33,393 nucleotides of DNA from Alphaproteobacteria bacterium. Lineage in GTDB: Bacteria; Pseudomonadota; Alphaproteobacteria; Paracaedibacterales; CAIULA01. Below, piece after piece: positions 12,260 through 32,880 of the stretch. The DNA is taken from positions 1 to 33,393 of the forward strand of contig JAIEPD010000032.1 of NCBI GenBank assembly GCA_019749935.1, read 5' to 3'. The position numbers and the translations under genes were made by a program. How positions within the stretch are numbered: the first letter of the stretch is position 1; every line of letters starts with the position of its first letter. The notes beneath the pieces were generated by a model. It worked only from the letters and a program-made list of their open reading frames with translations, ran no database searches and was not told the origin of the DNA.

Positions 12260-12306
12260 GAATGGAGATAAGAGTAAGAGAGGAACCAAGAAGAAAGGAA
12301 AAGTGT
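12232..12306 (+). repeat. Purine-rich spacer with repeated AGAGAGGARCCAA words
   Basis: The traC end and the traC-trbI gap are almost purely A/G, with AGAGAGGAGCCAA at 12232-12244 and AGAGAGGAACCAA at 12277-12289. A third copy, AGAGAGGAACCAAAAGG, lies inside traD near 24569. The stretch contains several Shine-Dalgarno-like GAGG and AGGA words. Confidence 0.45.
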
Positions 12307-12669: not shown

Positions 12670-12686
12670 ATGGAGGTGGACATACT

Positions 12687-13322
12687 ATGATCAAAGGCTT
12701 CTGTTATCTCTTCATCATAAACATCGCTTTCCTGCCCACGGCACAGGCTGAGCTTTTGAATGATTATGGCGTTGTTGGCAATACGTTTGAGATCCTGGAA
12801 GAAGATTTATTAGAGGTTATAGAAAGGAGGCTTCAAAGGATCGAGGAAGAAGGAGGTATCCAAAACCACCAAAACAAAATAGCGCTAGGGATTCAAGAAA
12901 AGATTAAAAGGCCAAAACCTGTTGAAGAAATTCACCACACAAAAGAACCAAGATCGTTCGCCTATGATCCTAGTATCATCGTTCCCTATGATCTAAAAGA
13001 CCACGAGGGTCAAATCTTTCATGGTAAAGGGACTAAAGTTAATCCTTTGGATTATCAGTCCCTTACAAAATCCCTTCTCTTTATTGATGGGGATGATGAA
13101 GCTCAGGTGAATTGGGCAAAAGAGCAAGAACCTAACAGTCAAATTATTCTAACGAGCGGCTCTCCTTTTGAGTTGATGGAGAAGCGAGATCGACCTGTTT
13201 ATTTTGATCAAGAAGGAGTTCTCACTAAAAAGCTTGGTATCTTTCAGGTCCCAGCTAAAGTTACTCAACAAGGAAAGCATCTGTTGATTGAGGAAATCAA
13301 TCTTTACAAGGAAGGAGATTGA
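12687..13322 (+). CDS. traW: TraW, periplasmic pilus assembly protein
   Basis: ATG 12687 has GGAGGTGG about 8 bases upstream and starts with a signal peptide (GFCYLFIINIAFLPTAQA). The 211-residue length matches F TraW (210). Family features are NDYGVVGNTFEILEEDLLEVI near the mature N-terminus, YDPSIIVPYDLKDHEGQIFHGKGTKVNPLD in the middle (shown here only as a named block), and the thioredoxin-like LFIDGDDEAQVNWA with a C-terminal VPAKVTQQGKHLLIEEI. TraW works with TrbC and TraU in periplasmic pilus assembly. Its stop lies one base before the traU start. Confidence 0.92.
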   Translation: MIKGFCYLFIINIAFLPTAQAELLNDYGVVGNTFEILEEDLLEVIERRLQRIEEEGGIQNHQNKIALGIQEKIKRPKPVEEIHHTKEPRSFAYDPSIIVPYDLKDHEGQIFHGKGTKVNPLDYQSLTKSLLFIDGDDEAQVNWAKEQEPNSQIILTSGSPFELMEKRDRPVYFDQEGVLTKKLGIFQVPAKVTQQGKHLLIEEINLYKEGD

Positions 13323-13323
13323 T

Positions 13324-14688: not shown

Positions 14689-15242
14689 TGTACTTTTTTC
14701 TTTTCTTATCAATGTTCTCCTTAGCAAAGGCGGAAGACCATAAGGTTTGGGCTTTGCAACAGCAAGGGCAAAGTCAGGCCTTAATCAAATATTATGAGAA
14801 AGAGGCTTTAGATCTTAAAAACCAAGCGCCTTCCCCTTTTAAAGCAAAAGGATGTTCGTCTCAAAACACTATAAGCTGTCTAAAAGAGAAAGAGTCAAAG
14901 CAACCGATAGAAACAAATCAAGCAAACACTGACTCTACGATTTACATCTTTGTTTCCTTGAGCATCCCCAAAGAGTCCTTAAAGGCTTTAGCGGTGGAGG
15001 CTAAAAAGCATAAGGCTGTGTTTGTGATTCGAGGGCTTATTGACAACAGTTTTTTGAAAACGGCAACTTTTGTAAAAGAATTAGGCGAAAGTGTTGTTTT
15101 AGATCCGCTCTTGTTCAGAGAGTATAACGTTGTCGTTGTGCCGACTTTTATAGAAGCACACCAGGCCGGTTATAAAAAGATCAGTGGCAATATCACCCTT
15201 GCTTATGCCCTTGAAAAATTTAAAGAGGGCCATATTAAATGA
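14673..15242 (+). CDS. trbC: TrbC, F-type periplasmic assembly protein
   Basis: GTG 14673 is chosen because GGAGGA lies 7-8 bases upstream; the later ATG 14688 would sit too far from it. The 189-residue product begins with a signal peptide (YFFLFLSMFSLAKA) and overlaps the traU end by 16 bases. The C-terminal half carries the TrbC signature: IYIFVSLSIPKESLKALAVE, then AVFVIRGLIDNSF and VVVVPTFIEA, a thioredoxin-like fold without a CxxC. F TrbC is 212 residues and pairs with TraW, its neighbour in many systems. Confidence 0.9.
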   Translation: MLRHVMYFFLFLSMFSLAKAEDHKVWALQQQGQSQALIKYYEKEALDLKNQAPSPFKAKGCSSQNTISCLKEKESKQPIETNQANTDSTIYIFVSLSIPKESLKALAVEAKKHKAVFVIRGLIDNSFLKTATFVKELGESVVLDPLLFREYNVVVVPTFIEAHQAGYKKISGNITLAYALEKFKEGHIK

Positions 15243-16924
15243 AACTGTTTTCTTATCTTTTTTGTTCCTATCTATTTCTAATTGGTTTATTAACATTCCC
15301 AGTCTGTATGCCTATGGAAAGTTCCCATTCTTTGGGGCAACAGTTAGCTGGATCTCTGCAAAGTTCTGTGCAAGGAGCCGCTCGAGGAACAGCTGCATCG
15401 ATGATTCCAGGTTTTGCAACCGATCGGCCAAAGGAAAGTTCTTTTAATGCGGCAACGATTGGTGATGCTGCGTTAGCTGAAACCCATACTTCAGAGGCAG
15501 GACAATTTTTAAAAACAGCAACAGCGACAAGGAAAAGATTTGTTTTGGATCCTGATACGGATCCTCTGCTTAGAAATGGCGATGAAGTCCTCAAGGACCC
15601 TCACACGATTTTAGATGTTAAAATGGAAGTTGGAGCAGAAGAAAAAGGAGCTTCTGTTCTTGTGCTTTGTGAAGAAGCGGGGGACAGTATCGAACAAGCT
15701 TGCCATCATAACCTTACCCTAGAACTCAGCATAACGCCTGGATATGTCACAGAATCATGGGTTTGTGGTGGGTATGATGTTCCTTGGTATGCGGATCATG
15801 GAGGATCTGCAAACCCTTGTTATGGAAAACCCAAAAGATATATGAGACATTCTCATGGCCCAAACAATCCTGGGTGTCTCAGAGGCCATAAACCGTGTGC
15901 CAAAGATTATCAATGTCATGAACACCCTGAAATCATCACCCTTACCAAAGAAGAATGGCGTGATGATTGTGCGGCTTTGGAAGATTTAACCGATAAAGGG
16001 ATTTGTCAGTATGTGAATAAGGTCTGTTCTGATGGACCTTCGACAAAAATGATTCAAGATCGTCCTATGACAAGAGACTGTTGGCAATTCAGACAAACGT
16101 ACCGGTGTAAAAGATCCAGTAAAAACACCTGCTCAGCGCTTCGAGCCCAAGGGTGTCTTCAAAAAGCTTCCCGTTGTAAGGAGTTTGTAAGCGGGGTTTG
16201 TGTGGTTTGGGAGCAAACCTATGAATGCTCTTCTTCTAAACGATCTTTAAAAAACATAAGAGCAGGGGTTGGCTCTCCTTTTTGTATTACCGGCAATTGC
16301 ACCAACACAAGTTATGAAGCGAATGGGGAAATGCTAGAAGTCATGGCTAAACTATCCGTTTTTAAAGAAATGCAAAATGACATACGAAGTGGCAGCTTTG
16401 AAATCTTTAAGGGAACCGACAAAAGATGTAGCCGCAACTGCATTGATTTTAAAGATTGCTGTCAGAACATGAAAGGGTGGGGAACCTCTCTTCATTTGGC
16501 TTCTTGCAGCATTGAGGAAAAACTACTTGCTCAGCTGAAAGATAAAAACCTTTGCCATCAGGTCGGAACCTATTGTGCCAAAAAGGTTTTAGGGATTTGT
16601 GTTTCAAAGAAAACGAGTTACTGCTGTTTTGGTAATAAGCTTTTAAGGCTTATCCATCAGCAAGGAAGATCACAACTGGGAATTGGCTGGGGAACAGCAG
16701 AAATACCAGTCTGTCGAGGATTACGACCAGAAGAACTCAGTCGCATTGATTTTAGCCGTCTTGATCTTAGCGAAGTGTTTGAGGAGATTATTGCCTCTTA
16801 CAAAGCCCCCAATGCAGCCCATCTTCAAACTGTTACGGCTGAAAGACTCAAAGACAACTTAAGACATATTCAGGCTGGAACTAAAAAACAACCCTTACAT
16901 ACAGGAGAAGCCGGTGGTTTATAA
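15239..16924 (+). CDS. traN: TraN, outer-membrane mating-pair stabilisation adhesin
   Basis: This 561-residue protein (F TraN is 602) starts at an ATG overlapping the trbC stop. A signal peptide (LFLIGLLTFPVCM region) precedes a Ser/Ala-rich stretch, then a long cysteine-rich body. Visible TraN blocks include CEEAGDSIEQACHHNL, CRGLRPEELSRIDFSRLDLSE near the C-terminus, and paired cysteines such as RNCIDFKDCCQNMKGWG and CHQVGTYCAKKVLGICVSKK. TraN contacts the recipient surface and stabilises mating pairs. Host receptor specificity cannot be read from the sequence. Confidence 0.92.
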   Translation: MKLFSYLFCSYLFLIGLLTFPVCMPMESSHSLGQQLAGSLQSSVQGAARGTAASMIPGFATDRPKESSFNAATIGDAALAETHTSEAGQFLKTATATRKRFVLDPDTDPLLRNGDEVLKDPHTILDVKMEVGAEEKGASVLVLCEEAGDSIEQACHHNLTLELSITPGYVTESWVCGGYDVPWYADHGGSANPCYGKPKRYMRHSHGPNNPGCLRGHKPCAKDYQCHEHPEIITLTKEEWRDDCAALEDLTDKGICQYVNKVCSDGPSTKMIQDRPMTRDCWQFRQTYRCKRSSKNTCSALRAQGCLQKASRCKEFVSGVCVVWEQTYECSSSKRSLKNIRAGVGSPFCITGNCTNTSYEANGEMLEVMAKLSVFKEMQNDIRSGSFEIFKGTDKRCSRNCIDFKDCCQNMKGWGTSLHLASCSIEEKLLAQLKDKNLCHQVGTYCAKKVLGICVSKKTSYCCFGNKLLRLIHQQGRSQLGIGWGTAEIPVCRGLRPEELSRIDFSRLDLSEVFEEIIASYKAPNAAHLQTVTAERLKDNLRHIQAGTKKQPLHTGEAGGL

Positions 16925-17711
16925 AAGCTCTCTTTTTGGTTTGCTTTTGAACTTGCAGCTCTTGGCAACATCTCTTCACGCAGGCTTTTTTAACGAACAA
17001 GCTCAAGGCTGGCATTGGTACGAAGCCTTACCTTTAGAAGACTTTTTAGAAGATAACAAACCAGAAGAAAAAGCTTCTTCCTCTTCTTCTAATACTCCTT
17101 TAAAACCCAAAACCTCAACAGAACTTGTTAAGGCCTATAGACAAGAACTGGAGAGAAGATTAACAGAAGCTTGGATAAAGCCGACGCCTCAAAACTTAAA
17201 AGCTTATCAAGACATGCAAAAAGATATGATGGCACGCTCTGAAAAATTTTCAAATACATGGATGCAAGTTGTCTATGAAAACCCTTCTTTGGATCACACC
17301 TTGATTGCTCCCGTCAATCAAAAAGCCCGCCATGTTTATCTTGATGAAGAAAAAAAACACAATAAGGAAACAATAAAGGCTTTGTCAGAAAGGTATGGCT
17401 TGTTTTTCTTCTTTAGAGGCGATTGTCCTTACTGCCATCAGTTTGCTCCGATTGTAAAGACCTTTTCAGAAACGTATGGCTGGGAAGTGATTGCGATTAG
17501 TCAAGATGGTGAGCCTTTAGAAGAGTTTCCAGAATCGCAACCGGATAATGGATTATTTGCTGCTTGGAAGATTGAGGTTTTGCCCTCTCTTTATGCCGTG
17601 AATCCAAATACAGGTCATGTCTTGCCGATAGCAATTGGTCTGACTTCTTTGGATCAAATGGAAGTGAGGATTATGAGCTTAGTTCAAAAGATGCCAGGAG
17701 GAAGTCAATGA
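16914..17711 (+). CDS. traF: TraF, thioredoxin-fold conjugation protein with CPYC motif
   Basis: GTG 16914 overlaps traN by 11 bases. The 265-residue product (F TraF is 247) has a signal peptide ending around SLHA, then the TraF start FNEQAQGWHWYEALPLE, a charged linker, and a C-terminal thioredoxin-like domain. In that domain FFFRGDCPYCHQFAPIVK places a redox CxxC at C171/C174. F-plasmid TraF is described as having the fold but not the CxxC, so this version may be catalytically active on the many disulfides of TraU, TraN and TraH. It overlaps traH by 4 bases. Confidence 0.92.
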   Translation: MVYKSSLFGLLLNLQLLATSLHAGFFNEQAQGWHWYEALPLEDFLEDNKPEEKASSSSSNTPLKPKTSTELVKAYRQELERRLTEAWIKPTPQNLKAYQDMQKDMMARSEKFSNTWMQVVYENPSLDHTLIAPVNQKARHVYLDEEKKHNKETIKALSERYGLFFFFRGDCPYCHQFAPIVKTFSETYGWEVIAISQDGEPLEEFPESQPDNGLFAAWKIEVLPSLYAVNPNTGHVLPIAIGLTSLDQMEVRIMSLVQKMPGGSQ

Positions 17712-19087
17712 AGTTTTTTATTTTTAACTTTGTTCTTGTTTCCTTAGCTATCTCTTCCTCTTCATGCCATGCCGGTATTGGCGAAGACATGATGCGGTTT
17801 TTTAAAGAAGCGGGTATGGCAAGTAATGTTACAACACCCGCTTATTATAAAGATCAAACAGCTGGGTATTATTCAGGAGGAAGTCTTGTCACCCGAAATG
17901 CGGTTCGAAACGCTCAGCCAGCAACAGTGCAAATGCCTGGATTTAGAGCGGGGTGTGGCGGTATTGATCTTTGGATGGGTGGGTTTTCTCATATTGGTGC
18001 CAGTCAACTGATTGATATGCTCCGAAACATAGGGTCCAGTGCTTCTTCTTATGCCTTTATGCTGGCAGTGCAAACCGTCAGTCCTCAGATTTATAACATC
18101 TTAAATGAACTGAATGCTTTGGCTACCAAAATTAATCAAACCAACATCAATAGTTGTGAAACAGCAGCGACCATGCTTGGAGGATTATGGCCTAAAAGTG
18201 ATCAAGCGAGTAAACATTTATGTCAAGCCATGGGGTCTAACTTAGGATCGTTTTCTGATTGGGCTGCGGCCAGACAAGGATGTGGGGCTAAAGGAGATCG
18301 GGACCGTATTCTTGGCGCAAAAGGGTCTGATCCTAGGTATAAGGATATGTTTGTAGGCGAATTCAATTTAGCTTGGAAAGCTATTCAATCCAATGCCTTC
18401 TTAAGTTCTGAACGGGATTTAGCTCAACTGTTTTTAACTCTTGTGGGCTCCATCATTGCTAGAAAAAATGGAGATGACTATGAAGTCCTTACCCTTCCTG
18501 GACATGCCGATAGAGATGATGTGATTAATGGACTTTTAAATGGAGGAGATACACCCATTTATACTTGTGATAGCGAACATTGTCTCAATCCAGTTTTAAG
18601 GAAGGTTGCCCTACCAGAAGCTCATGCTTTTTTAAAGAAAGTTCATAAAGTATTAGAATCGCTGATTCAAAAAATATATGAAGATACTGAGCCAACTGCA
18701 GAAGAGAAAGATTTTCTAAATTCAACAAGACTGCCTGTTTATAAAATTCTCAATGTCACCACTGCTTATCGAAAGGGCTACGCTCCTATTGATGTGCATC
18801 AATATGCCGATTTGATTGCTCTCGACATTCTTTATAAATACATCCTTGAGGTGATTGATATTGTTCATGACAGTGTAGCTCAGTTAAAGGCTGTTCAAGT
18901 AGATGATAGCCATCTCGAGCGTTTCTTAAATTACCTCAGATTAGCCAGAGAGCGAATAACCATAAGGCGTAACAGCGCCTTTCAATATATGGATAGTATT
19001 CTCTCTTTTATTCAAGCCACACAACTTATTGAAAAACAACTCCATGTGATGCTGGGCAATGTCGCTAATGAAACGAACTGGATGTAG
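17708..19087 (+). CDS. traH: TraH, periplasmic pilus assembly protein
   Basis: The 459 residues match F TraH (458). A signal peptide (FNFVLVSLAISSSSCHA) is followed by the family start DMMRFFKEAGMASNVTTPAYYKDQTAGYYSGGSL (named by its ends) and the GCGGIDLWMGGFSHIG motif near residue 80. Central DLAQLFLTLVGSII and a C-terminal coiled, helical half are also typical. TraH acts with TraF and TraU in assembling and extending the pilus. It is followed by a 92-base purine-rich gap before traG. Confidence 0.93.
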   Translation: MKFFIFNFVLVSLAISSSSCHAGIGEDMMRFFKEAGMASNVTTPAYYKDQTAGYYSGGSLVTRNAVRNAQPATVQMPGFRAGCGGIDLWMGGFSHIGASQLIDMLRNIGSSASSYAFMLAVQTVSPQIYNILNELNALATKINQTNINSCETAATMLGGLWPKSDQASKHLCQAMGSNLGSFSDWAAARQGCGAKGDRDRILGAKGSDPRYKDMFVGEFNLAWKAIQSNAFLSSERDLAQLFLTLVGSIIARKNGDDYEVLTLPGHADRDDVINGLLNGGDTPIYTCDSEHCLNPVLRKVALPEAHAFLKKVHKVLESLIQKIYEDTEPTAEEKDFLNSTRLPVYKILNVTTAYRKGYAPIDVHQYADLIALDILYKYILEVIDIVHDSVAQLKAVQVDDSHLERFLNYLRLARERITIRRNSAFQYMDSILSFIQATQLIEKQLHVMLGNVANETNWM

Positions 19088-19179
19088 GGGAGAGTCAAAT
19101 TGAGTATGAGCAGAAAGAGAAATAGAGGTAAAGGCAGAAACAGAAGTAGATAAAAAGTAAAGATATAAGGAGGCAACGG
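19088..19179 (+). other. Purine-rich traH-traG gap with traG ribosome site
   Basis: The gap is mostly A/G and ends with AAGGAGG (19167-19173), 6 bases before the traG ATG at 19180. A 15-codon Arg/Lys-rich frame (19106-19153, starting MSRKRNRGKGRNRSR) lies inside it but has no convincing ribosome site and is not called as a gene. Confidence 0.4.
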
Positions 19180-22100
19180 ATGACTTATCAAGTGATTACA
19201 TATGGCGATCCAGAAATCTTAAAAGGGGTCTTTGATGCCATTGCCATGTGTTTGAATTCTCACACCGGAAGTCTCTTTAAGCCTTTATTACGATTAGGTC
19301 TAGGTGTTGGGAGTCTTTGGGCTTTGGCTTATTCCATCTGGGGCGATTATATGAAAGCCCTCTCGGGGTGGCTTATTCCTTTATTTATGATTACCTGTCT
19401 TTTATTGGTTCCTCAGGCCAGAGTGTTTATTAAAAACCCAGCTTTTGTGACATCTCACCAAGTCGATCATGTGCCCTTTGGTTTAGGGATGTCAGCCAGT
19501 TTGATCAGTCGCATTGGTCATAGCATAACAGAAAATATAGAAATGATCTTTACAACGGTGGATGATTTAAAATATCACAAAGCAGGTTTTCTCTTTGCAT
19601 CAAACTTAGTTCAGCAAGCCAAAACCTTTCATATTACCAATGAAGATCTAGCCTCTAACATGAGGGAGTTTGTCGGACATTGTGTGGTTTATGATGCCAT
19701 GCTGGGCAGAAAATATACAATGGAAGATTTAAGAAACTCTGATGATATTTGGACATTAGTCTCTACTCAAGCCTCTCCGGTTCGCTCTTTTGTTTGGAAA
19801 GATCCTCATAATCTTGGTGAACCCAGTGCCCGGCCAGAGATTATCACCTGTAGAGAAGGCGTCACACGTTTTAATCGTTTGTGGGGACTAGAGCTTGACC
19901 GAACAGCCACGCTTTTTGGTCAAAAGATCTTTGGTAAAAACGCCTTTATTAATCCAAAGATAGCCCTTTTACAGCATATGCAGAGTTCGTATGCTTTTTT
20001 GGTAAATTCTTCTAAGTCAGCTCTTGAAATTTTAAAGCAGCAAATGATGATTTATGCGGTTGTGGATGGGATAGAGCAAAAGTCCGTTGCTCTTGGTAAT
20101 ACGCCTAACTTTGCGGCACGAAGAGCTTACTTACAACAACGCTCCACTTATGAAACTCTAGGGGCTATGGCCGGAGAAACTTTACCCACCATGAAAGCAG
20201 TCTTAGAAGCCATTGTTTATTCTGCCTTTATGTTCATCGTTCCTTTGTCCGTTTTACCGTTTGGATGGCGATTCTTAAGTTCCTGGGGACAAACCCTTCT
20301 GTGGCTACAAATGTGGGCGCCTCTTTATGCAATATTACATTACTTAATACTAATGACGGCAAGATCAAAATCTTTAGCGGCTCTGTCTATTTCCAGTGAG
20401 GCAGGGGTCACCCTTGCAAGCTCTGTTGGGCTTGTCAATGCGAATGCGGATCTTGCAGCTATGGCTGGGTATCTTGCCATCAGTATTCCTTTTTTAGCGG
20501 TTGCTCTTGTGAAAGGGGTTGGATCTTTTGTGCATATGGCCTCTCACTTAGGCGCTGTGAGCCAAGGGGCTGCCAGTATGGCAGCAGGAGAAGCAGTTTC
20601 TGGTAACTATAGTTTTGGCAATATCTCTGAGGGTAACCGACAGATAGCCAATACCCATATGCTGAGTCACAGTACGGCAGCAAGCTACAAAGCAGGGATG
20701 TTTAGCCAAAGTGATGGGCGCACAGATATGGTGACAACGGCTGATGGCCAGCAGATTGTGAATGTTGGCAGTTCAAGTGTTCCTGTTTCCGTCAATAAAG
20801 CAGAAACAGAAAGTGCGGTCTTAACAGAGCAATCCAGTCGATCTTACCAAAAAGCTTTACAGCAATCGGAAAGCTCAGCAATGCATTATGGAGAGACTTT
20901 ACGAGGTCTTGAAGAAGTCTCTCGCCAAACTGGACATAGCGAAAATTTATCCGATCAAACCAGCCATGGAAAATCTATAGAGCAAAGTAGTGCTGTTTCT
21001 AAAGTCGGTCAAATCGTTAGAGATTTTGCAAAGAATCATAATGTATCAGAAGAACAAGCCGCAAGTCTTATCGGGCAAGCTTCTATAGGAGGCGGAAAAG
21101 GTTTTGGTATAGAAGGTTCTCTCTCGGCTTCTATTGATGGCAAGGCTTATGATCAAAAAACTATCTCTGAAGCTTATAAGATAGGGCAAGATGAACAATT
21201 CCAAAAACTCACAAGAGAGGCAGTTCAGGCTATCCAAAACCAAAGCTATACCCAAAATGATGAAGATTCAAGACGAAGAAATAACAGTATTAGCAGTTCT
21301 TGGGAGAGTGCTCAAAGTCTGAGGGCAGAGGCCTCTAAGAGTTTTAGGGAATCAGAAGATCTTCAAAAGCAAGCGGCTTGGATTCAAAGCAATGCCTCTA
21401 CGATCAACACAAACTTTACGCAACAAGCCCTTGAAGGCGTTGCTAACATGCCAGCAGATAATGCAAGAGGCCGGATTGGTATGCAAGGTGTTGCCCATAT
21501 GGCAGCTCATAATCCTGAACTCTTGCAAAAGTATGTGAGTCATTGGGCATCGAACCATGGAATTAATGTGTCTGCCTCTCCAGACCTTAAACCTATAGAA
21601 AGTGCTCTTGATTTAGAGAGATCTTACAGGGCAGAAAGGCGTTATTTACAAGAACAGACACCATCTCATGAGTTTGGCAATTATCAACTTCAAACACCTT
21701 CAAAAGTACAAGATATAAATTCTTTAGAAACAAGACAGGAAAGCTCAACTCCTGACAAGAGAGGAATATCTTATCCAGAAATGAATGAGCCCTTCTTAAC
21801 AGGGAAAAGAGGAGCAAGTCTCGATACCATTGCAAAACCTTCTGTCTTACAAGAACAATCTAGTTTGCCTATGAGGGAGGAAAGTCTTGTGCACTCAAAA
21901 GCTTATCCTGACGAGAAAGGGCCGGTCATCAAACAACCTCTCTTGAATGATTCCAGTAGTTATCTATCAAGAATAGAAGCTCAAAACCAGGAGCAAACTT
22001 TTATAGACGGAGGAGACAACAATCAAATCAGGCTCAGAACAGAAAGGATGAGTTTCAATAATAATATTCCCAATGTTAGTGGACCAAACGAAGGAAGCTC

Positions 22101-22569
22101 AAGCAATAATAGGACTACCACTTCTGGGCAAGAAATCTCTCAAGAACCTTTTCAAAGAGCTTCTACAAGATTAACCAACGAAGAAGCTCAAACAGCTCAT
22201 AAAACGCCTACTTCAAGACTTGTTTCAAGCCCTGGTGAAATGAACCCAAAAAATGAAAACCTTGTAAAGACTGATCTTCTAGATAAAAAGCCATTGGGCC
22301 TGGATTCCGAAAAGATTGAAAAATTGAAAACCGAAGTCAGTGCAATGCAAAAGACAGGCGCAAAGTCCATAGAAATGGCAGAAAAGCAACATGAACAACA
22401 AAACCAAGGAATAGAGAAAGAGTTTCATAAAAAAGGTAAGAAAAACCTTTTAAGAGTTGCAACAAAAGTGGAACTGAAGAATCTTGCTGATACAGCTTTG
22501 GGAATGCCTTACGAGGGAGCCAAATCGCTTGTTAAAAAGTTAACAGGTGAATCTCAAAAGAAACCTTAA
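19180..22569 (+). CDS. traG: TraG, inner-membrane mating stabilisation protein
   Basis: At 1129 residues this is longer than F TraG (938). The N-terminal half matches the TraG_N family: it begins YQVITYGDPEILKGVFDAIA, has membrane helices at about 45-90 and 340-460 (including AFMFIVPLSVLPFGWRFLSS and GYLAISIPFLAVALVKGVG), and has a periplasmic loop. The C-terminal half is soluble, rich in Ser, Gln and Asn, like the domain of F TraG that functions in mating stabilisation and entry exclusion. The last 350 residues are low-complexity and charged, and are the likely site of the extra length. A strong AAGGAGG precedes the ATG. Its 3' end overlaps a converging gene by 4 bases. Confidence 0.92.
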   Translation: MTYQVITYGDPEILKGVFDAIAMCLNSHTGSLFKPLLRLGLGVGSLWALAYSIWGDYMKALSGWLIPLFMITCLLLVPQARVFIKNPAFVTSHQVDHVPFGLGMSASLISRIGHSITENIEMIFTTVDDLKYHKAGFLFASNLVQQAKTFHITNEDLASNMREFVGHCVVYDAMLGRKYTMEDLRNSDDIWTLVSTQASPVRSFVWKDPHNLGEPSARPEIITCREGVTRFNRLWGLELDRTATLFGQKIFGKNAFINPKIALLQHMQSSYAFLVNSSKSALEILKQQMMIYAVVDGIEQKSVALGNTPNFAARRAYLQQRSTYETLGAMAGETLPTMKAVLEAIVYSAFMFIVPLSVLPFGWRFLSSWGQTLLWLQMWAPLYAILHYLILMTARSKSLAALSISSEAGVTLASSVGLVNANADLAAMAGYLAISIPFLAVALVKGVGSFVHMASHLGAVSQGAASMAAGEAVSGNYSFGNISEGNRQIANTHMLSHSTAASYKAGMFSQSDGRTDMVTTADGQQIVNVGSSSVPVSVNKAETESAVLTEQSSRSYQKALQQSESSAMHYGETLRGLEEVSRQTGHSENLSDQTSHGKSIEQSSAVSKVGQIVRDFAKNHNVSEEQAASLIGQASIGGGKGFGIEGSLSASIDGKAYDQKTISEAYKIGQDEQFQKLTREAVQAIQNQSYTQNDEDSRRRNNSISSSWESAQSLRAEASKSFRESEDLQKQAAWIQSNASTINTNFTQQALEGVANMPADNARGRIGMQGVAHMAAHNPELLQKYVSHWASNHGINVSASPDLKPIESALDLERSYRAERRYLQEQTPSHEFGNYQLQTPSKVQDINSLETRQESSTPDKRGISYPEMNEPFLTGKRGASLDTIAKPSVLQEQSSLPMREESLVHSKAYPDEKGPVIKQPLLNDSSSYLSRIEAQNQEQTFIDGGDNNQIRLRTERMSFNNNIPNVSGPNEGSSSNNRTTTSGQEISQEPFQRASTRLTNEEAQTAHKTPTSRLVSSPGEMNPKNENLVKTDLLDKKPLGLDSEKIEKLKTEVSAMQKTGAKSIEMAEKQHEQQNQGIEKEFHKKGKKNLLRVATKVELKNLADTALGMPYEGAKSLVKKLTGESQKKP

Positions 22570-23237
22570 TGATACGTTGAAAGGCAAGAAGAAATGGGAG
22601 GAGGTGATATAGGTGTTACAATGGTGTTTAGAGGTTCATAAATTGGTTTGCGAAAACCTAAAACACCACTTTGTTCCGCAAAACAATTATTCATATCGAT
22701 TAACGAAGAGGAGCTTTTAAATGAATTATGATTAGAGAACGAAGATAAGCCGACTTGAAAAATTAATTTGTAAGTTGAAGGCAATTTAATACCAAGTTTT
22801 TTTGCAAAGAAAACATCAGTTAAAGCTGCGGGATAGTAGCCCATGAGAACAGAAACAAGGAAAACAATAGGAAGGGATGATGGAATTGAAACTAAACCAA
22901 GGGGACACAAAAGCATGGCTGGGATAATTCTAAAGAGACGAACCAAAGGAATCTTCTTTGCGTATGTCATCAGTTCTTCTGCATTCGGGCCGTATAGTTC
23001 AGAAGCATCTTCATCCCTAATATCAGCTTTAAAGATCTTTTCTCGACGAAGATACAAAATACTGTCAGTGATGATTCCAATGAATGGGAATAAAAGAAAA
23101 TATACACCAAAGGCATTTTTAGCATCACGAGCAAGCAGCGCTAAAATAGAGCATATAAGAAGGCTTAATCCAGCTTTAAAAGCAAAAGCCAGTCTGGATG
23201 AATATGCAAGATATTTGACTTGCTTCGCTTTTGTCAT
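22566..23237 (-). CDS. Four-helix inner-membrane protein of unknown function, antisense between traG and traD
   Basis: ATG 23237 is chosen because AAGGAGAG lies about 5 bases upstream; the earlier ATG 23255 would include that site in the coding sequence. The 223-residue product has hydrophobic segments at about 21-36 (AGLSLLICSILALLA) and 43-61 (GVYFLLFPFIGIITDSILYL), a soluble acidic loop, then LFRIIPAMLLCPLGL and LPIVFLVSVLMGYY. The C-terminal 60 residues are Ser-rich and soluble. I do not recognise the family. In F plasmids the traG-traD interval holds the exclusion genes traS and traT, so an exclusion or immunity role is a tempting inference, but the strand is opposite and no similarity is visible. 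Confidence 0.6.
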   Translation of the reverse strand: MTKAKQVKYLAYSSRLAFAFKAGLSLLICSILALLARDAKNAFGVYFLLFPFIGIITDSILYLRREKIFKADIRDEDASELYGPNAEELMTYAKKIPLVRLFRIIPAMLLCPLGLVSIPSSLPIVFLVSVLMGYYPAALTDVFFAKKLGIKLPSTYKLIFQVGLSSFSNHNSFKSSSSLIDMNNCFAEQSGVLGFRKPIYEPLNTIVTPISPPPISSCLSTYH

Positions 23238-23455
23238 TTTTTCTCTCCTTACCATGAACTATACCATAAAGAAGTTAATTCTCTATGAAAATCTAAGGCT
23301 TTTGCCTCAAAACAGAAAAAACAAACATTTAAAAGTTATTAATTAATATGAAATTGATAATTTTTAAGTTGTTACTGAACTAAATGCGAATTCAGGTATT
23401 TAAAGGGGTGTTGAATATAAATAACAAGTAAAAAGATACAAGGGAGGAGAACATC
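23238..23455 (+). promoter_or_regulatory. AT-rich upstream region of traD with strong ribosome site
   Basis: About 220 non-coding bases separate the divergent membrane-protein gene from traD, so each probably has its own promoter here. GGGAGGAG at 23442-23449 is a strong ribosome site for ATG 23456. No promoter with two good boxes could be chosen by eye. The overlapping plus-strand frame 22843-23346 was rejected. Confidence 0.4.
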
Positions 23456-25429
23456 ATGAAACTTTCAGGCAGCTTCACGCAAGGCGGACAAACTCAACTT
23501 CACAAACTCCATATGGTTCGCCAAGTCCTATGGGCAACCTTTAAGACGTCTTTGGTTATTGGCATCTTATGGTTTTGTTTTTTGATCTATAAAGATTTTG
23601 GTTGGAAGGAATTCTATGCCTTAATCGTTTATTATGGGGCTTGTCTCAGAGATGATCTCTCACTTTTACCTCATGGATTTTTTGATCGGGTTGATTTTCC
23701 TTTTCAAGGCGGAGAGTTTTACAACGTGAGTTGCTCTTGGTTGGCAAGAGCCCCCTCCATCCGGCACTTTGTAACATTCCTTCAGGGGAGGTTGTTAGAA
23801 AAGCTATTTTATGCAGTTTTGATGATGCTTCTATCTTTTGCTTCTTTGTCTTGGTTTTGGATGAGAAGAGGAAAGCACCGTCAGCAAAAGAAAATACTTC
23901 AAGGGACTACAATTGTTAAACCTCGAGTTCTTAAAAAACTCATCAAAAGAAGAGAGCGGTCTGATTTAACTTTAGGGGATGTTCCTTTACTTAAAAACAG
24001 AGAAACAGAGCATATGATGATTGTGGGAACTACAGGAACTGGTAAAAGCAATTGCCTTCATCATCTTCTTGGGCAAATACGCGCTCGAGGGGATAGAGCG
24101 GTTATTATTGATACAACGGGCTCTTTGGTTTCAAGATTTTATGAAGAAGATCGTGATAAACTTTTAAATCCTCTTGATAAAAGAAGCTTAAATTGGGATT
24201 TATGGAGTGAGTGCAAGGAACCTTACCATTATACAGAATTAGCCCAAAGCCTTATTCCAGAAAGTGGCTCTGATCCTATATGGTGGACTTCGGCGAGGAG
24301 ACTATTTGTAACAACAGCTCAGAAATTACAGATCAAGAACCAACGATCCATTAAAAAATTGATTAAATACTCTCTTATTGATCCTTTGTCTAAGGTAGCT
24401 TCTTTTTATGAAGGTACACAAGTCTCTAGTTTTATGAACAGTGCCGCCGATAAAACAGCCCTCAGTGTCCGCTCCACATTAGGAATGTATACTGAAGCGT
24501 TTGCGTATTTAGAATCTGACCAACAACACCCCTTTTCGATTAGAAGTTGGGTCAGGAATGAATTAAAAAGAGAGGAACCAAAAGGAGAAGAAAATACAAA
24601 TAATAATAATCATCATCTTCATCATAATCATCCCAATGCAGGGGATTGGCTTTTCCTAAGTAGTACAACAGAACAACGGGAATTGTTGGCCCCCTTACTG
24701 TCAACGTGGTTAAGCATTGCTTATAAAGCTTTAATGGGACTAGAAGAATCGTATACTAGGAGACTATGGTTTATTGTGGATGAGTTACCCTCTTTAAATG
24801 TACTGCCAAACTTACCCAAAGCACTCGCAGAAATTCGTAAATATGGAGGCTGTTTTGTGATCGGTCTTCAAAACTTACCTCAATTAGAAGAGATGTATGG
24901 CATGAACTTAACCCGCTCCATGGCTGGTTTATGTGGAACAAAAGTCGTGTTTCGAACCTCGGATGCGCCAACCGCAAAAAAGTTATCTGAATTTTTTGGA
25001 GAACAGGAGATTTTAGAACCGGCAGAAAGCATTTCCTTTGGCGCTCATCAAATGCGCGATGGGGTTAACTTAGCAGAACACAGACGGTTTCAAGCAACAA
25101 TTCCTTATACGAATCTCTTGAATTTAAATAACCTTGAAGCTTATTTACAGTTGCCTGGAAATTACCCCTTAACCAAAATAGCCTTTGATTATCTGATTAT
25201 GGAAAACAAAGCTTCTGGTTATGACCCAAGAACTCCCACAGAAACAGAAGAAAACTTAAGTTTTTTGATCAACGCTCTCGCTCAAGGGAAAGGCAGCGTT
25301 GTTGATCCAACGATATCTGCTGTTGATGCTCTTGCCGAGTCCTCTCAACAGTCTGAGTCATTGCTTTTTCAAAGGCAGGATCTAACTTTGAGGGAGAAAG
25401 AAGAGATTGATCTAGACTTTTCTCAATAG
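23456..25429 (+). CDS. traD: TraD, F-type coupling protein (VirD4-family ATPase)
   Basis: TraD recruits the relaxase-DNA complex to the channel. The 657 residues (F TraD is 717) start with two membrane helices (about 28-50 and 115-140). Walker A GTTGTGKS lies at about 191-198 and Walker B FIVDELPSL with D442/E443, followed by the FVIGLQNLPQLEEMYG sensor-like segment. The all-alpha domain region contains a His/Asn-rich insertion (NNNNHHLHHNHP, about 382-393) encoded by AAT/CAT triplet runs, just before GDWLFLSS. The last 53 codons overlap the relaxase gene on the other strand. It is the F-type coupling protein although the relaxase is Ti-type. Confidence 0.93.
   Translation: MKLSGSFTQGGQTQLHKLHMVRQVLWATFKTSLVIGILWFCFLIYKDFGWKEFYALIVYYGACLRDDLSLLPHGFFDRVDFPFQGGEFYNVSCSWLARAPSIRHFVTFLQGRLLEKLFYAVLMMLLSFASLSWFWMRRGKHRQQKKILQGTTIVKPRVLKKLIKRRERSDLTLGDVPLLKNRETEHMMIVGTTGTGKSNCLHHLLGQIRARGDRAVIIDTTGSLVSRFYEEDRDKLLNPLDKRSLNWDLWSECKEPYHYTELAQSLIPESGSDPIWWTSARRLFVTTAQKLQIKNQRSIKKLIKYSLIDPLSKVASFYEGTQVSSFMNSAADKTALSVRSTLGMYTEAFAYLESDQQHPFSIRSWVRNELKREEPKGEENTNNNNHHLHHNHPNAGDWLFLSSTTEQRELLAPLLSTWLSIAYKALMGLEESYTRRLWFIVDELPSLNVLPNLPKALAEIRKYGGCFVIGLQNLPQLEEMYGMNLTRSMAGLCGTKVVFRTSDAPTAKKLSEFFGEQEILEPAESISFGAHQMRDGVNLAEHRRFQATIPYTNLLNLNNLEAYLQLPGNYPLTKIAFDYLIMENKASGYDPRTPTETEENLSFLINALAQGKGSVVDPTISAVDALAESSQQSESLLFQRQDLTLREKEEIDLDFSQ
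24598..24637 (+). repeat. AAT/CAT triplet run in traD
   Basis: Tandem AAT and then CAT-type triplets encode the NNNNHHLHHNHP stretch. The run is in frame and of the type prone to slipped-strand length change, so its length may differ between strains. Confidence 0.6.
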
Positions 25430-28400
25430 CGCGTTGATCTAATGAGGGTGTTAATTCGTTGGTGGTTTTTTCCAGAGGCAAAGTCTTAAAACTGTCTTGG
25501 TGCAAAGACTTATTCTTTTCTAGGATAGAATGAGCCACTTCAATTAAATTTTCTTTGTTGGGCGCATAATTAGAAATTTGAAACAGATGCAGTGCTTGTT
25601 CTCCTAAACCTTGGAGTTGATTTTGGGAGAGACCTGAAAAGGTTTTCTGGTAATTTTCAATTAATTTCGGTAATTGCTCTTGATAGGCTTGTTCAAGCCC
25701 AATGGCTTTAGGAATGCAAGATTGTTCAAAAGCTAAAGAAGCATGATCTTTCCCTTTAAACCATAAATGAGAAGCCATAGTAGCAATTGTAAAGATTTTA
25801 TCAATAGACCAAGAATTGGATTCAGAGTCAATTGATACATCTTTTAAATGGGATTGAATGTAACACGATTTAATCAACAGTTCTGTTTCTTTGCCCTCAT
25901 TCATATTCATTTTTTGAATGTCCATGGATTTGAGATAAGAAAACGTATGGGCAACCAGGTTACAATACTGTTTGTCTGAAAGGGATTCTGGAATGTCAAG
26001 GTCATAGTGAGTTAAAGTCTCCTTGATAATAGAGAGTTGTTTATTCGTTAAAGAAATCTCTGAAAGGGTATGAGGTTTTTCAGGAGGAGATTTCTCAATA
26101 GGAGGCAAATCTACAACTAACCGAGGAGATGAAGGAAGGGAGGAAAGAGAAGAAGAGAGATCTTCTTTTTCGAGACCAGTCTTTTGTCCCAAATTGCCAA
26201 ACATCCAATCTTTAGCTTGCGTCCAAGTTTTGTAGGTGAACTCTTTAATCGATTCCCAGGAGATATAAGATAAAGAAGAGGCACTTAAATCGCGCCTTTG
26301 CATAAAGGCCCGTTGATCCTCTGCTGTTATTTCCATCCCCTGATTTTTATCAAGGATATAATCTAAAGCATTTTCTTTAGGCGCTTCTTTAGAAAGAGCT
26401 TGAAACAAATCTTCCTTGGTTGGAATACTATTGCTATCCACATAAACTTGGACATCTTCTTTGTGCCTTGTAAGGGCTACATAAGTTAAGTGTTTGTTTA
26501 AAGAGGGGCTCGCATACACAAATGTTTTATCCACCGTTGTTCCTTGGGATTTATGGATAGTGGTGGCATAGCCATGATCGATGTGATTGTAGTTACCCAT
26601 ATCAAAGGTGAGAGATGATTGATCTTCTTTTTGAACACTGATTAACTCTTCTTGGATATCTATAATTTTAGCCAACTGGCCATTTCTGACATTTAACCCA
26701 TAATCATTTCTTGAGAAAATAATTTGATCGCCAATGGCAAACTCTCTTTCCTCGCTGATGATCTTAGGTTTAAAGGGATGATGATTCGGTGAGTCTGTTT
26801 GGTCTTGATCTAAAGTTTCAAGATTCAGGGGTCTTGAGATAGTAAACCTGTAATTCGTATCATCCAGAAAACCTTCTTTTTGCATCCTCAATCTGGCTAA
26901 ATGATTAAGCTCTTTCACATCTTGATTGGTGTGGGCCAGAATCAAAGATGTAGAGACAGGATGGTGAGGGGAAGCCAATTTTTCTTCGGTATTTTTTCTT
27001 ACATGATCTATCCAATCTTCAATTAGTTGATCTTTAGCCTCTAGACTGTAATGAATACTGTTGTTCTGATGATAAACTTCTAGGGCTTTTTCTGTTTGAT
27101 GGGTTGCTAAATGCTGACTCGCTTCTTTTTGCCAATCAACTTTTTGCCGTACAATAGTTGAAAGTTCAGCAAAGCCAACAGCTTCCATAATAGCCCGTGT
27201 GGGAGCACCTGCTTCAATGGGAGGTAATTGCTCAGGGTCTCCCACGAGAACAAGTTTAAAGCCTTGTTCTTTCGATTCTTTTAACAGAAAATGCAGCCTT
27301 TGACTATCAACCATCCCGGCTTCATCAAGAATAAGAACGGTGTTTTTGTTAAGCTGCTCTCGATCTCGTCTCCATTCTTGTTCCCATTTATGAAGGGTTT
27401 TGGAAGCAATGCCGATACTTTGTAAATTAGAAGCGGCTTTTCCTGTTGGTGCTGCTCCCACAACTCTATAGCCTGACTCTTGCCAAATTTCTTGGGCAAT
27501 ATCTAAGCAGGTGGTCTTACCGGCACCAGCATACCCAACAATGACTTTGAGTTGTCCCTCCGAGACCATATGCTCAATGGCGTGAACCTGATCTTTGGAT
27601 AATCCTCCATGCTCTTTAAGCTTTTCATTGCCTTTATTTAAAGATAATTCGATTGAGGAAAGAGAAGGAGGGCAAGAGGGATGATTTAAAGCGCTATCTC
27701 TTGCCATTTCAACAATTTGTTTTTCAACGCGAATCATATCTTTGGTTGTGAGTTTTAGAGCTTCTCCTTGATCATTGGCACTCAACGTTACCAATTGTTC
27801 TGAGACTTCTATTTGTCCAAGAATTAATTGAAATTCTTTAGCATCATCAATATAACGATTTACCACTTTTGCAATGTCTTGTCTTGTGAAGGTGGATTGA
27901 TAGCGCGTAATATAATCTAAAACTAGGGAAGGATTCTCTCGAATGAGTTCTTTATTTTTTTCTTGAACGGCTTTCATCTCGAGAAAGCGATCTACGTACT
28001 CACCTCTATACCCCATCTCCTTAACAGATTTACCAAGTTTGGGTTGGGGAATAAGCTCAATCCCTTGATCTTCATAACTTCGGTGATCGATTCTAATATC
28101 AAGCCCTGCTTTTGCTAAGTGAACATTGGCATAATCAGCCCATTTCTCTCGCCAGTGACAAAGTAAAATCTTAGAGTTCCATTCAACCACTTTAGGACCA
28201 AAAACCATCTCAGCAGAAGCCCTTTCTAAACCAATATAAGATTTAAGTTTTTGCAGAATGGTTGCATCTCTCTCTACGGCTTCTCGTAAGGTGAGCATCA
28301 CATGGACATGGGGTTTTTCAATTTTTTCCTTTTCATCAAAATGATTATGCACACACCAATCGGCAATCATGCCTTTGGATGTAAAGTTATCTTTAATAAA

Positions 28401-28748
28401 CTCTCTGGCTAATTCCAATCTTTGTTCAATATTTAATTCATGAGGAAGAGAGAATTCAATATCTCGGTAGACTTGAGCATCAACCCGTTTTTCAAACTGT
28501 TCAACGGCATTCCAAAGTTTTTCTGAATTCTTATGAACATCGCCTACCCGTAATTCTTGTACCCATTGAGGGGAATTTTCTGGAATGGAGAGCTCACAGT
28601 GTTCAACATCTTGATGGGTTGCATTGGTAAAAACCTTACCAGATCTCTCATCCATCATGCTTTGTCCATGGCGATAGGTTGCTCCTGCCACTGCGTTTCT
28701 TCCAGTTGCTCTTGAATGAACTTTTACTGAAAAATGATATATCGCCAT
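25269..28748 (-). CDS. traA: TraA, Ti-type (MobQ) relaxase-helicase fusion
   Basis: This 1159-residue protein would nick oriT, stay attached to the strand and unwind the DNA. The relaxase domain starts MAIYHFSVKVHSRATGRNAV with the likely nucleophile Y25 in the GATYRHG segment; the metal-binding HUH cluster is H134, H147 and H149 (KPHVHVMLTL). A RecD/TraI-like helicase follows: Walker A VGYAGAGKTTC at about 404-414, Walker B LILDEAGMVDSQRL, then late motif ATTIHKSQGTT near 735. The C-terminal 350 residues are helical and less conserved. No ribosome site is visible upstream of the ATG. The gene runs divergently from the small traC/traD-like pair, as on Ti plasmids, and converges on traD. Confidence 0.95.
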   Translation of the reverse strand: MAIYHFSVKVHSRATGRNAVAGATYRHGQSMMDERSGKVFTNATHQDVEHCELSIPENSPQWVQELRVGDVHKNSEKLWNAVEQFEKRVDAQVYRDIEFSLPHELNIEQRLELAREFIKDNFTSKGMIADWCVHNHFDEKEKIEKPHVHVMLTLREAVERDATILQKLKSYIGLERASAEMVFGPKVVEWNSKILLCHWREKWADYANVHLAKAGLDIRIDHRSYEDQGIELIPQPKLGKSVKEMGYRGEYVDRFLEMKAVQEKNKELIRENPSLVLDYITRYQSTFTRQDIAKVVNRYIDDAKEFQLILGQIEVSEQLVTLSANDQGEALKLTTKDMIRVEKQIVEMARDSALNHPSCPPSLSSIELSLNKGNEKLKEHGGLSKDQVHAIEHMVSEGQLKVIVGYAGAGKTTCLDIAQEIWQESGYRVVGAAPTGKAASNLQSIGIASKTLHKWEQEWRRDREQLNKNTVLILDEAGMVDSQRLHFLLKESKEQGFKLVLVGDPEQLPPIEAGAPTRAIMEAVGFAELSTIVRQKVDWQKEASQHLATHQTEKALEVYHQNNSIHYSLEAKDQLIEDWIDHVRKNTEEKLASPHHPVSTSLILAHTNQDVKELNHLARLRMQKEGFLDDTNYRFTISRPLNLETLDQDQTDSPNHHPFKPKIISEEREFAIGDQIIFSRNDYGLNVRNGQLAKIIDIQEELISVQKEDQSSLTFDMGNYNHIDHGYATTIHKSQGTTVDKTFVYASPSLNKHLTYVALTRHKEDVQVYVDSNSIPTKEDLFQALSKEAPKENALDYILDKNQGMEITAEDQRAFMQRRDLSASSLSYISWESIKEFTYKTWTQAKDWMFGNLGQKTGLEKEDLSSSLSSLPSSPRLVVDLPPIEKSPPEKPHTLSEISLTNKQLSIIKETLTHYDLDIPESLSDKQYCNLVAHTFSYLKSMDIQKMNMNEGKETELLIKSCYIQSHLKDVSIDSESNSWSIDKIFTIATMASHLWFKGKDHASLAFEQSCIPKAIGLEQAYQEQLPKLIENYQKTFSGLSQNQLQGLGEQALHLFQISNYAPNKENLIEVAHSILEKNKSLHQDSFKTLPLEKTTNELTPSLDQRAIEKSLDQSLLSPSKLDPAFEKAMTQTVERTRQEHQQQISLDQQRCLSLERER

Positions 28749-30116: not shown

Positions 30117-30926
30117 TTATTCTAACTGTCCCAGTTCAGGAAATTGAAAGGTGATTTTTTTAGCATATTTTTTCCATTCCTGATCACTTTCATGCATGAA
30201 ACTTCCCGTTTTTCCGAGTCGACTGAATACTGAAGCAGCACGTGAAAAACGGCAGTACATAGTACTATCTTCATCTAACTTATGGAGGCTTTTACCCGAT
30301 AATTTGTTAATACCTTCGTGAATAAAATCGAACCACTGCAAATTCTCCCAATTACCCCATCTTGAAAACACGCCAATGCTATCTTTGGATATTGGCCAAT
30401 TACTAGTATGTATTGCATCTTGAAGATGGGATATTTCACCACTTGCAGATCTGGAAATCACAAATCTGGGAACGATCCATATTTCAATCTTACCGGTATA
30501 GTCATTTCTCCTATGATAACCGAACGATATAGTTAACCTTTTTTCAGCTTCTGTGCATCCATATTTATCTAACCTAACTGTCCCTTCTAATGTGTTCAAA
30601 TCGATCCAATCTTTTATCGGTATCGATATTTCCTCTCCATCATCATTCTTGTATATCAACGAACCATTGATAAATCTTTTATAAATGTCTTCATGGCCTC
30701 TGGCTATTTCTGGAATATTGACGCATATTCTATTTTCGACCTCCGAAAGCCTCCTCTCTAGATTTTCAAGTCTATTATCCATTTGTTCAAATCTTTCATC
30801 TCCTGTACGAGCTATATTGCTCAAACGACGATTGATTAAATCTATTTGATCTTGATTATCTCCTGCATTTAAACAGGTTGCATAGGTAATTAACATAGTC
30901 GCTACAAAGGTTTTTATTTTTGACAT
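30117..30926 (-). CDS. Secreted protein A: signal peptide, coiled coil, shared C-terminal domain
   Basis: ATG 30926 follows AGAGGGA by about 8 bases; an earlier in-frame ATG (30956) would add ten residues. The 269-residue product has a signal peptide ending about CLNA (residue 21). A coiled coil of about 40 residues follows (heptads in INRRLSN and LENLERRLSEVENR), then a domain at about 88-200: GSLIYK, ISIPIKDW, LEGTVRLDKYG, KIEIWIVPRFVI and IGVFSRWGNWEN. The neighbouring upstream gene (31036-31926) has the same domain in the same order. I do not recognise the family. Export to the periplasm or host is inferred from the signal peptide. Confidence 0.65.
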   Translation of the reverse strand: MSKIKTFVATMLITYATCLNAGDNQDQIDLINRRLSNIARTGDERFEQMDNRLENLERRLSEVENRICVNIPEIARGHEDIYKRFINGSLIYKNDDGEEISIPIKDWIDLNTLEGTVRLDKYGCTEAEKRLTISFGYHRRNDYTGKIEIWIVPRFVISRSASGEISHLQDAIHTSNWPISKDSIGVFSRWGNWENLQWFDFIHEGINKLSGKSLHKLDEDSTMYCRFSRAASVFSRLGKTGSFMHESDQEWKKYAKKITFQFPELGQLE

Positions 30927-31035
30927 TTTATTTTTCCCTCTGATTTTATTGCACACATAGAAACGCAGTTATCAAAAAAAAATCTATAATAAAACCTTTA
31001 TCTAATAAGCGTAAATACAACACAGATACATTTTT

Positions 31036-31926
31036 TTATCTAAAACTTAAGTAAAATGAACTCATGCATCGTTTTATATTTTCTTCTTTTGGGAAACTCG
31101 ATGGATCATTTCCCCAGGTACTTTTCCATTTTTCTAATAAACTTTGATCATTAGATAATTCATCAAGACTCTGAGTTGTTAAATAATAAGATGGATTCGA
31201 AGAAGATGGAGACGAGGTTAAATCCATATTCCAAGATCCTTTATTCCAAAATATTCCAATTGGAATTTCAGATCTCCAAAGTCCACTATTAATCAAGTAT
31301 TTAAAATATTGAGCTGTGGTTTCAGGTGAGTTCTCTACAATGAAACGAGGAACTATCCATATTTCCATTTTAGTTACATTATCAGCTTTCTTTTCTTTTC
31401 GGTAACCTGTTTCAATGCTTATGTACTTTCCTGCATCTCCATAACGAGATAAATCAAATGTTCCTTCTAATGGGTTTAATAAATCTGAGAAAGGTATTTC
31501 TATCCTTCCTACATCGTTATCTGGATTTGGTTTATAGATCAATTTTCCTCTTTTAAGTTTTTCATAACCTGCAGGCATTTTTTGAAATGCTTGGAGAGAA
31601 GTTCTGTCTTGAGTGCTTGAATCAACAGGAGAAGTGGGTTGAGAGGTAACAGGAGTCGAATAGGTTGAGTTTGTCCCTGTATTTTTATTATCATCAGGAT
31701 CTTCGCTTGAACAACAAAAAACAGGACAGCAAGGTTTAAAACAAAGCCGTGTTTGTATAAAACACTCTCTTATTGTCCCGGGGCACTCAAGACTACCAAT
31801 CTGACAGCTACAACCAGAACAGCTACCATAGGTTTGATTAGAAAATCCAATAGCAATGATTATTAAAACTAAATCATAAAAAAACTTAATTTTAATGAAT
31901 GGATGTAAAAAATATCTAGTACACAT
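31036..31926 (-). CDS. Secreted protein B: Cys-rich N-terminus, shared C-terminal domain
   Basis: This 296-residue protein begins with a hydrophobic export segment (FYDLVLIIIAIGF, about 16-28) with a likely cleavage near TYGS. A cysteine-rich stretch follows at about 35-73 (SCSGCSCQIG, RLCFKPCCPVFCC), then a Ser/Thr/Pro linker (80-107), then the domain shared with the next gene at about 127-235: GKLIYK, RIEIPFSDL, LEGTFDLSRYG, KMEIWIVPRFIV and IGIFWNKGSWN. The pair probably arose by duplication with exchange of N-terminal modules. No family recognised. The ribosome site before this ATG is weak, so the exact start is uncertain. Confidence 0.65.
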   Translation of the reverse strand: MCTRYFLHPFIKIKFFYDLVLIIIAIGFSNQTYGSCSGCSCQIGSLECPGTIRECFIQTRLCFKPCCPVFCCSSEDPDDNKNTGTNSTYSTPVTSQPTSPVDSSTQDRTSLQAFQKMPAGYEKLKRGKLIYKPNPDNDVGRIEIPFSDLLNPLEGTFDLSRYGDAGKYISIETGYRKEKKADNVTKMEIWIVPRFIVENSPETTAQYFKYLINSGLWRSEIPIGIFWNKGSWNMDLTSSPSSSNPSYYLTTQSLDELSNDQSLLEKWKSTWGNDPSSFPKEENIKRCMSSFYLSFR

Positions 31927-32448: not shown

Positions 32449-32880
32449 TTATGCAGCTTTCAGTTTTTTTCGTCTGCCACTTAATCCAAGTCCTGAAGTC
32501 TTGGCAATTTCACTGCGGCGTTTAGCATAAGCAGGGGAAACGGTTGGATAACTTTCAGGAAGACCCCATCTCTTTTTATATTCTGCAATACTCATATTAT
32601 ACACAGTCTTTAAATGACGTTTGAGCATTTGTAACTTTTTACCATCCTCTAAGCACACAATGTACTCATCAGTGACTGATTCTGAGATAGAAACAGCAGG
32701 TTTTAAGGGGCTATTGTGCCTAAGGCTTCTGGGATTATGGCTTGCCTCAGATAACATCTGGTGAATTTGCGCAATAATGGAGGGTATGCTTTCTAGTTCC
32801 ACTGTATGATTTGAGACATAAGCGGACACTAAATCGGTCGTTAATTTAAATAATTGAGGGTCTTTAATAGTTTCAGTCAT
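32449..32880 (-). CDS. Ros/MucR-family transcriptional regulator
   Basis: This 143-residue protein carries the Ros/MucR DNA-binding domain: YIVCLEDGKKLQMLKRHL, then YNMSIAEYKKRWGLP and YPTVSPAYAKRRSEIAKTSG. MucR proteins are nucleoid-associated regulators in alphaproteobacteria that bind AT-rich targets. The zinc site is reduced: C76 and H89 remain, but the second cysteine of Ros is D79 and the Ros histidine pair is V93/Y94. Some Ros homologues in Mesorhizobium are known to fold with altered or no zinc ligands, so it may still be functional. Its location beside a conjugative element suggests control of it, which is inference. Confidence 0.88.
   Translation of the reverse strand: MTETIKDPQLFKLTTDLVSAYVSNHTVELESIPSIIAQIHQMLSEASHNPRSLRHNSPLKPAVSISESVTDEYIVCLEDGKKLQMLKRHLKTVYNMSIAEYKKRWGLPESYPTVSPAYAKRRSEIAKTSGLGLSGRRKKLKAA

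Follow-up and report, generated by a model that had tools for sequence, protein, structure and literature searches.

The ORF1 and ORF2 genes

The window analyzed here is the whole of a 33,393-nucleotide stretch (contig JAIEPD010000032.1 of assembly GCA_019749935.1) from a protist-associated alphaproteobacterium of the order Paracaedibacterales. Toward its end, two open reading frames (ORFs) on the minus strand, ORF1 and ORF2, encode proteins in which different N-terminal parts precede the same C-terminal domain, and this domain recurs in relatives behind a wide range of interchangeable modules. ORF1 (30117..30926) encodes 269 amino acids from an ATG, or 279 from an upstream GTG. Since an AGAGGG ribosome-binding site precedes the ATG at 30926, this codon is probably the start, rather than the GTG at 30956. 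The protein begins with a putative Sec signal peptide (30864..30926; MSKIKTFVATMLITYATCLNA/GD), assigned by a rule-based check and the sequence, followed by a coiled-coil-like module (30717..30863; QDQIDLINRRLSNIARTGDERFEQMDNRLENLERRLSEVENRI), which has heptads in its sequence and only weak Pfam coiled-coil matches, and by its copy of the shared domain (30120..30716; E 9.4e-57 with profile A1). ORF2 (31036..31926; 296 amino acids) carries a putative Sec signal peptide (31825..31926), a Cys-rich module with 10 Cys in about 38 residues (31705..31824), a linker rich in Ser, Thr, Pro, and Asn (31609..31704), and the shared domain (31039..31620; E 1.3e-65 with profile A1). The differing N-termini are thus as the sequence-only reading had described them. 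Neither protein contains a eukaryotic-type module by Pfam search.

The two genes are homologous. BLASTP aligns them at E=1e-17 with 34% identity and 51% similarity over 148 amino acids, and the alignment spans all of the ordered blocks on which the twin relation had been proposed (G-x-LIYK, I-x-IP, LEGT, EIWIVPRF, and IG-F..G-W). The Smith-Waterman score of 169 lies 28 standard deviations above the mean of 1000 shuffles (32.8 +/- 4.8, maximum 56; z=28). The proposed relation therefore holds, whereas the proposed length of 110 residues does not, as the shared domain covers about 175-200 amino acids and reaches the C-terminus. The window is contig C81 of a genome of 1.89 Mb in 96 contigs (G000; genomes, contigs, and loci are given G, C, and L numbers below), in which ORF1 and ORF2 are the only copies of the domain found; about 50 relatives occur elsewhere.

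The shared C-terminal domain

The shared region of the window proteins has no match in Pfam, NCBIfam, PHROGs, or PADLOC, and that of 25 or more relatives has none in Pfam. A profile of 23 relatives finds nothing significant among the PDB sequences (best E 0.98), and the literature searched holds no description of such a domain. The domain, its combination with a Sec signal, and its place as the element that stays constant while the other parts are shuffled all appear to be undescribed in these databases and papers, in agreement with the view that it is unrecognised.

AlphaFold2 models ORF2 residues 103-296 with confidence from 23 sequences (predicted local distance difference test [pLDDT] 85.1, predicted template modelling score 0.82). 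A second, independent AlphaFold model, of the L065 protein, has the same order of secondary structures and a pLDDT of 85-96 over most of the domain. Foldseek against the PDB gives best E values of 2.0 for the ORF2 domain model and 0.52 for the L065 model, Foldseek of one model against BFVD nothing better than E 1.6, and VIA-align of two models against the PDB no Z of 2 or above over the domain. This comparison covered the PDB with two models and BFVD with one, a scope in which the lack of a convincing match is no proof of a new fold. Tyr73, Lys84, Glu86, and Trp88 (domain numbering) are invariant in the alignment and are located on or beside strands in the model; they probably mark a functional site, either binding or catalytic.

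N-terminal modules of the relatives

In every complete gene among the roughly 50 ORFs, the domain is C-terminal. The end of its conserved core lies at most 36 residues from the stop codon (79 in L131), and the last element in nearly all members is a short hydrophobic strand (FYLQF or FHVHF, for example). Most members also have the export signals that had been noted for the window pair, with signal-peptide-like N-termini in 18 of 23 members and 16 of 51 flanking ORFs by a simple rule.

The modules in front of the domain are diverse, bearing out the earlier idea of swappable parts far beyond the two window genes. U-box domains occur in L066, L072, L074, L076, and L080 (Pfam, 1e-12 to 1e-18), and dynamin-like GTPases in L063, L066, L067, L072, and L074. 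A TIR/SEFIR module is found in L070 (TIR_2 4e-11 and bSEFIR 7e-18 among the relatives) and, more weakly, in L139 and L063. In L124 (230-2722, plus strand), a protein kinase (2e-55) and a PARP catalytic-type domain (2e-9) are joined to the C-terminal domain, and in L131 (2578-4704, plus strand) it is fused to a MACPF pore-forming-type domain (MACPF_1 9e-16). L132 carries Sel1 repeats and L133 both Sel1 and LRR (Sel1 9e-27 and LRR 3e-7 among the relatives). The U-box, TIR, kinase, PARP, MACPF, LRR, and Sel1 matches all exceed the Pfam cut-offs. An F-box-like segment in 7 of 11 members is weak (best E 0.001, under the gathering score); profile searches of the PDB give F-box matches of only E 0.62 and 0.97, ranked under a chance match to CagY, and in the L065 model the N-terminus is of low confidence.

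Other relatives have coiled-coil, Cys-rich, or unrecognised N-terminal parts. L146 resembles ORF1 in its signal peptide, coiled coil, and domain, and the Cys-rich N-terminus of L077 is the counterpart of that of ORF2. The paralogous members L075 and L078 share an unrecognised module of about 430 residues with no Pfam match, and L123 carries another unrecognised module. ORF1, ORF2, L062, L008, L013, and L146 are domain-only-like.

Such members, with this domain alone plus a short N-terminus, and the invariant polar residues K84, E86, and Y73 on or beside strands would suit a domain that itself acts on the host as an enzyme or toxin, with the N-terminal modules as accessories. This explanation is improbable, as many of the fusions already hold recognised enzymes (kinase, PARP, U-box) and no catalytic family was matched by sequence or fold.

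Exchange of modules and proteins without the domain

In a maximum-likelihood tree built on the domain (support given as paired values), close relatives carry different modules. The domains of L077 (Cys-rich) and L080 (U-box) are sisters with support of 100/100, as are those of L074 (U-box-GTPase) and L013 (short, no recognised module) with 100/99, and L139 (TIR) is nested in a group that carries a different module (98/90). Within L076, two tandem genes, one short and lacking the U-box and one with it, have sister domains (100/100). The domains of ORF1 and ORF2 form long branches among the more divergent copies, and their placement is unreliable.

The modules also occur without the domain. G003, a domain-negative genome, encodes a signal peptide-U-box-GTPase-coiled-coil protein (L173, on C45) in which the domain profile does not find the domain, and which matches L074 with 36% identity over 578 amino acids (8e-102). 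Being domain-less in a domain-negative genome, L173 offers a natural comparison. G006 encodes a short signal peptide-U-box protein, likewise without the domain. Module and domain are thus separable both ways.

These proteins bear on the main rival explanation, in which the C-terminal domain would serve in sorting or secretion: Sec would bring the protein to the periplasm, where an outer-membrane machine would recognise the domain and secrete or anchor the variable cargo. It is the main rival because the domain is invariably C-terminal, and the position at the extreme end, the final beta-strand, the usual signal peptide, and the unrelated cargo in front would all be expected of it. However, the homologous U-box-GTPase protein of G003 and the U-box protein of G006 have signal peptides but no such domain, and several members have almost no cargo. 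The domain-less U-box-GTPase homologue and the domain-only members therefore argue against a pure export tag. A low number of copies per genome, 1-10, in only about a third of the genomes, also counts against a sorting module.

Distribution of the domain

All of the roughly 50 distinct domain ORFs gathered are from Alphaproteobacteria. In the order of the window, the domain is present in 13 of 42 genomes and in 9 of 14 genera. This order contains Candidatus Paracaedibacter symbiosus, as shown by the L065 protein, which is identical to L010 of G033, itself one of the order's genomes. A class-wide survey of 385 genomes adds only three further families; 7 of the 17 genomes in the order of one of these are positive, as is 1 of 3 in another. 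Among 398 Pseudomonadota, the window's own genome is the sole genuine positive; matches in G608 and G451 were rejected as chance, as they coincide with an outer-membrane-type protein and with unrelated genes. Across 84,980 species, a motif scan yielded 19 relatives, all with record titles of Alphaproteobacteria, Paracaedibacter, Holosporales, or unclassified bacteria or Proteobacteria. A contig scan with ORF2 alone found no relatives, its patterns being too specific, whereas profile A1 did find them. Plasmid and GenBank phage collections contain no match to the domain. Broken or truncated copies occur in G033 (C48), G279 (C105), G181 (C2), and G001 (C11), suggesting rapid turnover.

Genomic context and secretion systems

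Positions 7047..28748 of the window are occupied by an F-type conjugative type IV secretion system (T4SS; TraK, TrbI/TraB, TraC, TraU, TraN, TraH, TraG, and TraD) and a Ti-type TraA relaxase. The upstream neighbour of ORF2 is a ROS/MucR-type regulator (32449..32880, minus strand; 2.2e-41). An AbiEii/AbiEi type IV toxin-antitoxin pair (203-1812, minus strand) lies at the end of the contig, close to the conjugative element. A scan for promoters and terminators found no more sites than expected by chance. Five F-type TraC loci are present in G000 (contigs C28, C67, C77, C81, and C82), and this type of conjugative element appears to have multiplied there.

Domain genes are often located near mobile elements, as counted without a background rate. 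The surroundings of L064 match those of the window (MucR, TraD), L066 adjoins a MobA/MobL relaxase, and L065, L073, L078, L079, and L139 are near transposases, recombinases, a group II intron, or phage genes. L139 (3895-5397, plus strand), with signal peptide, TIR-like module, and domain, shares a viral contig with a P22-type portal gene and with an IS110 transposase, and is probably prophage cargo.

The position of ORF1 and ORF2 beside F-type tra genes and TraA, with L064 and L066 in similar places, might suggest that the proteins are surface-exposed or periplasmic structural components of the conjugative element or the cell, with no part in host manipulation. This is quite unlikely: the domain and TraC are not associated in the genomes of the order, modules such as U-box, F-box-like, kinase, and PARP have no evident periplasmic role, and the mating-pair proteins are already assigned to other ORFs of the window.

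The sequence-only reading had also given the adjacent secretion system a role. That part is not borne out, for the system belongs to a conjugative element and F-type TraC occurs in 5 of the 13 domain-positive genomes, against a chance expectation of about 4 among the 42 genomes of the order. G023 (two contigs, 99% complete) has two domain genes, and TraC was not found in it. The F-type T4SS was accordingly rejected as a dedicated exporter and is probably a mobile-element neighbour. TssC of the type VI secretion system (T6SS) and secretin genes are each present in 39 of 42 genomes of the order. Such near-universal machines would be available to a sorting module, yet their presence does not discriminate between genomes with and without the domain, and no machine was found to track it. 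With the evidence from module exchange, this makes the sorting explanation rather doubtful. Signal peptides speak against direct loading into a T6SS. A second TssC-like gene pair, marking a second T6SS cluster, occurs in G001, G002, G013, and G028, that is, in 4 of 13 domain-positive and 0 of 29 other genomes in a post hoc comparison.

Proposed mode of action

The preferred explanation, with a probability of roughly one half on sequence evidence, is that ORF1 and ORF2 are short members of an undescribed family of modular proteins that are exported and interact with the host, and that would bind a common target through their C-terminal domain. The family belongs to symbionts of the Paracaedibacter type and to related symbionts among the Alphaproteobacteria. 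An effector-like role is plausible, given that many of the modules are eukaryotic-type; of the earlier suggestion of effectors or surface proteins, the former is thus reasonable, while sequence does not separate the two.

In the proposed path, a Sec-type signal peptide would first take each protein out of the cytoplasm, and a general route would carry it across the outer membrane. Characterised Paracaedibacteraceae symbionts can occupy the host cytoplasm with no host membrane around them (PMC11144129), and we infer from this that crossing the bacterial envelope could suffice for delivery to the host cytosol. The domain of about 175-200 residues would fold independently and bind its common target, either in the host or where symbiont and host meet; the invariant Tyr73, Lys84, Glu86, and Trp88 of the model suggest that the binding site is conserved. 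Whichever exchangeable module stands at the N-terminus (U-box, F-box-like, TIR/SEFIR, GTPase, kinase/PARP, MACPF, repeats, coiled coil, or Cys-rich) would then act on or assemble at this target, with ORF1 (coiled coil) and ORF2 (Cys-rich) as binding or scaffold versions lacking a recognised enzyme.

Several points weigh against this explanation. The extreme C-terminal position in every member suits a sorting signal equally well, and the invariant Lys, Glu, Tyr, and Trp could be catalytic. No secretion machine co-distributed with the domain was found among the F-type T4SS, T6SS, and secretin. The signal-peptide test was a home-made rule, with most of the remaining members passing by eye when the choice of start is considered. 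ORF1 and ORF2, as divergent copies, may have drifted in function.

A bolder form of the host-interaction explanation is possible but tentative. Here, the domain would have a new fold and serve as a common "address" on Sec-exported Paracaedibacter-type proteins that are released into the host cell, docking ubiquitin ligases, TIR enzymes, GTPases, kinases or ADP-ribosyl-transferases, and pore-formers to a single host target common to them all, while conjugative elements and prophages would spread the genes.

According to a 2025 review (PMC11909080), effectors and secreted molecules of this group are essentially unknown experimentally, and the T6SS is no more than a candidate carrier. A single undescribed domain on about 50 probably exported proteins, many of them with eukaryotic-type modules, may allow candidate effectors of these symbionts to be listed by sequence and is a well-defined object for studies of structure and localisation. 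The family also illustrates how modules are actively shuffled on mobile elements.

Comparison with known systems

The C-terminal domains (CTDs) of the type IX secretion system (T9SS) in Bacteroidota and the BID domains of Bartonella T4SS effectors are conserved C-terminal domains found on unrelated cargo, and T9SS cargo has a Sec signal peptide. The present domain works like these in being one conserved C-terminal domain on unrelated cargo. It differs in phylum and size, in the existence of homologous cargo without the domain and of domain-only members, and in sequence, as the shared region has no Pfam or NCBIfam match to either type. The F-type T4SS with TraA relaxase is a physical neighbour of ORF1 and ORF2, and tra genes likewise adjoin L064 and L066, yet its phylogenetic co-occurrence with the domain is at chance level.

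The C-terminal domain matches no known recognition domain in Pfam or the PDB, unlike that of eukaryotic F-box and U-box proteins, although the two would work alike, with the catalytic or adaptor module N-terminal and the recognition domain C-terminal. Legionella Dot/Icm effectors such as AnkB (PMC2790608) and the NleG U-box effectors (PMC2891834) are likewise modular, with eukaryotic-like domains. The present family departs from them in its Sec-type signal peptides and shared C-terminal domain, with no link to Dot/Icm or a type III secretion system found. As with those effectors, its putative F-box or U-box modules are expected to act on host ubiquitination, and modular effector-like proteins with eukaryotic-type domains are an already known kind.
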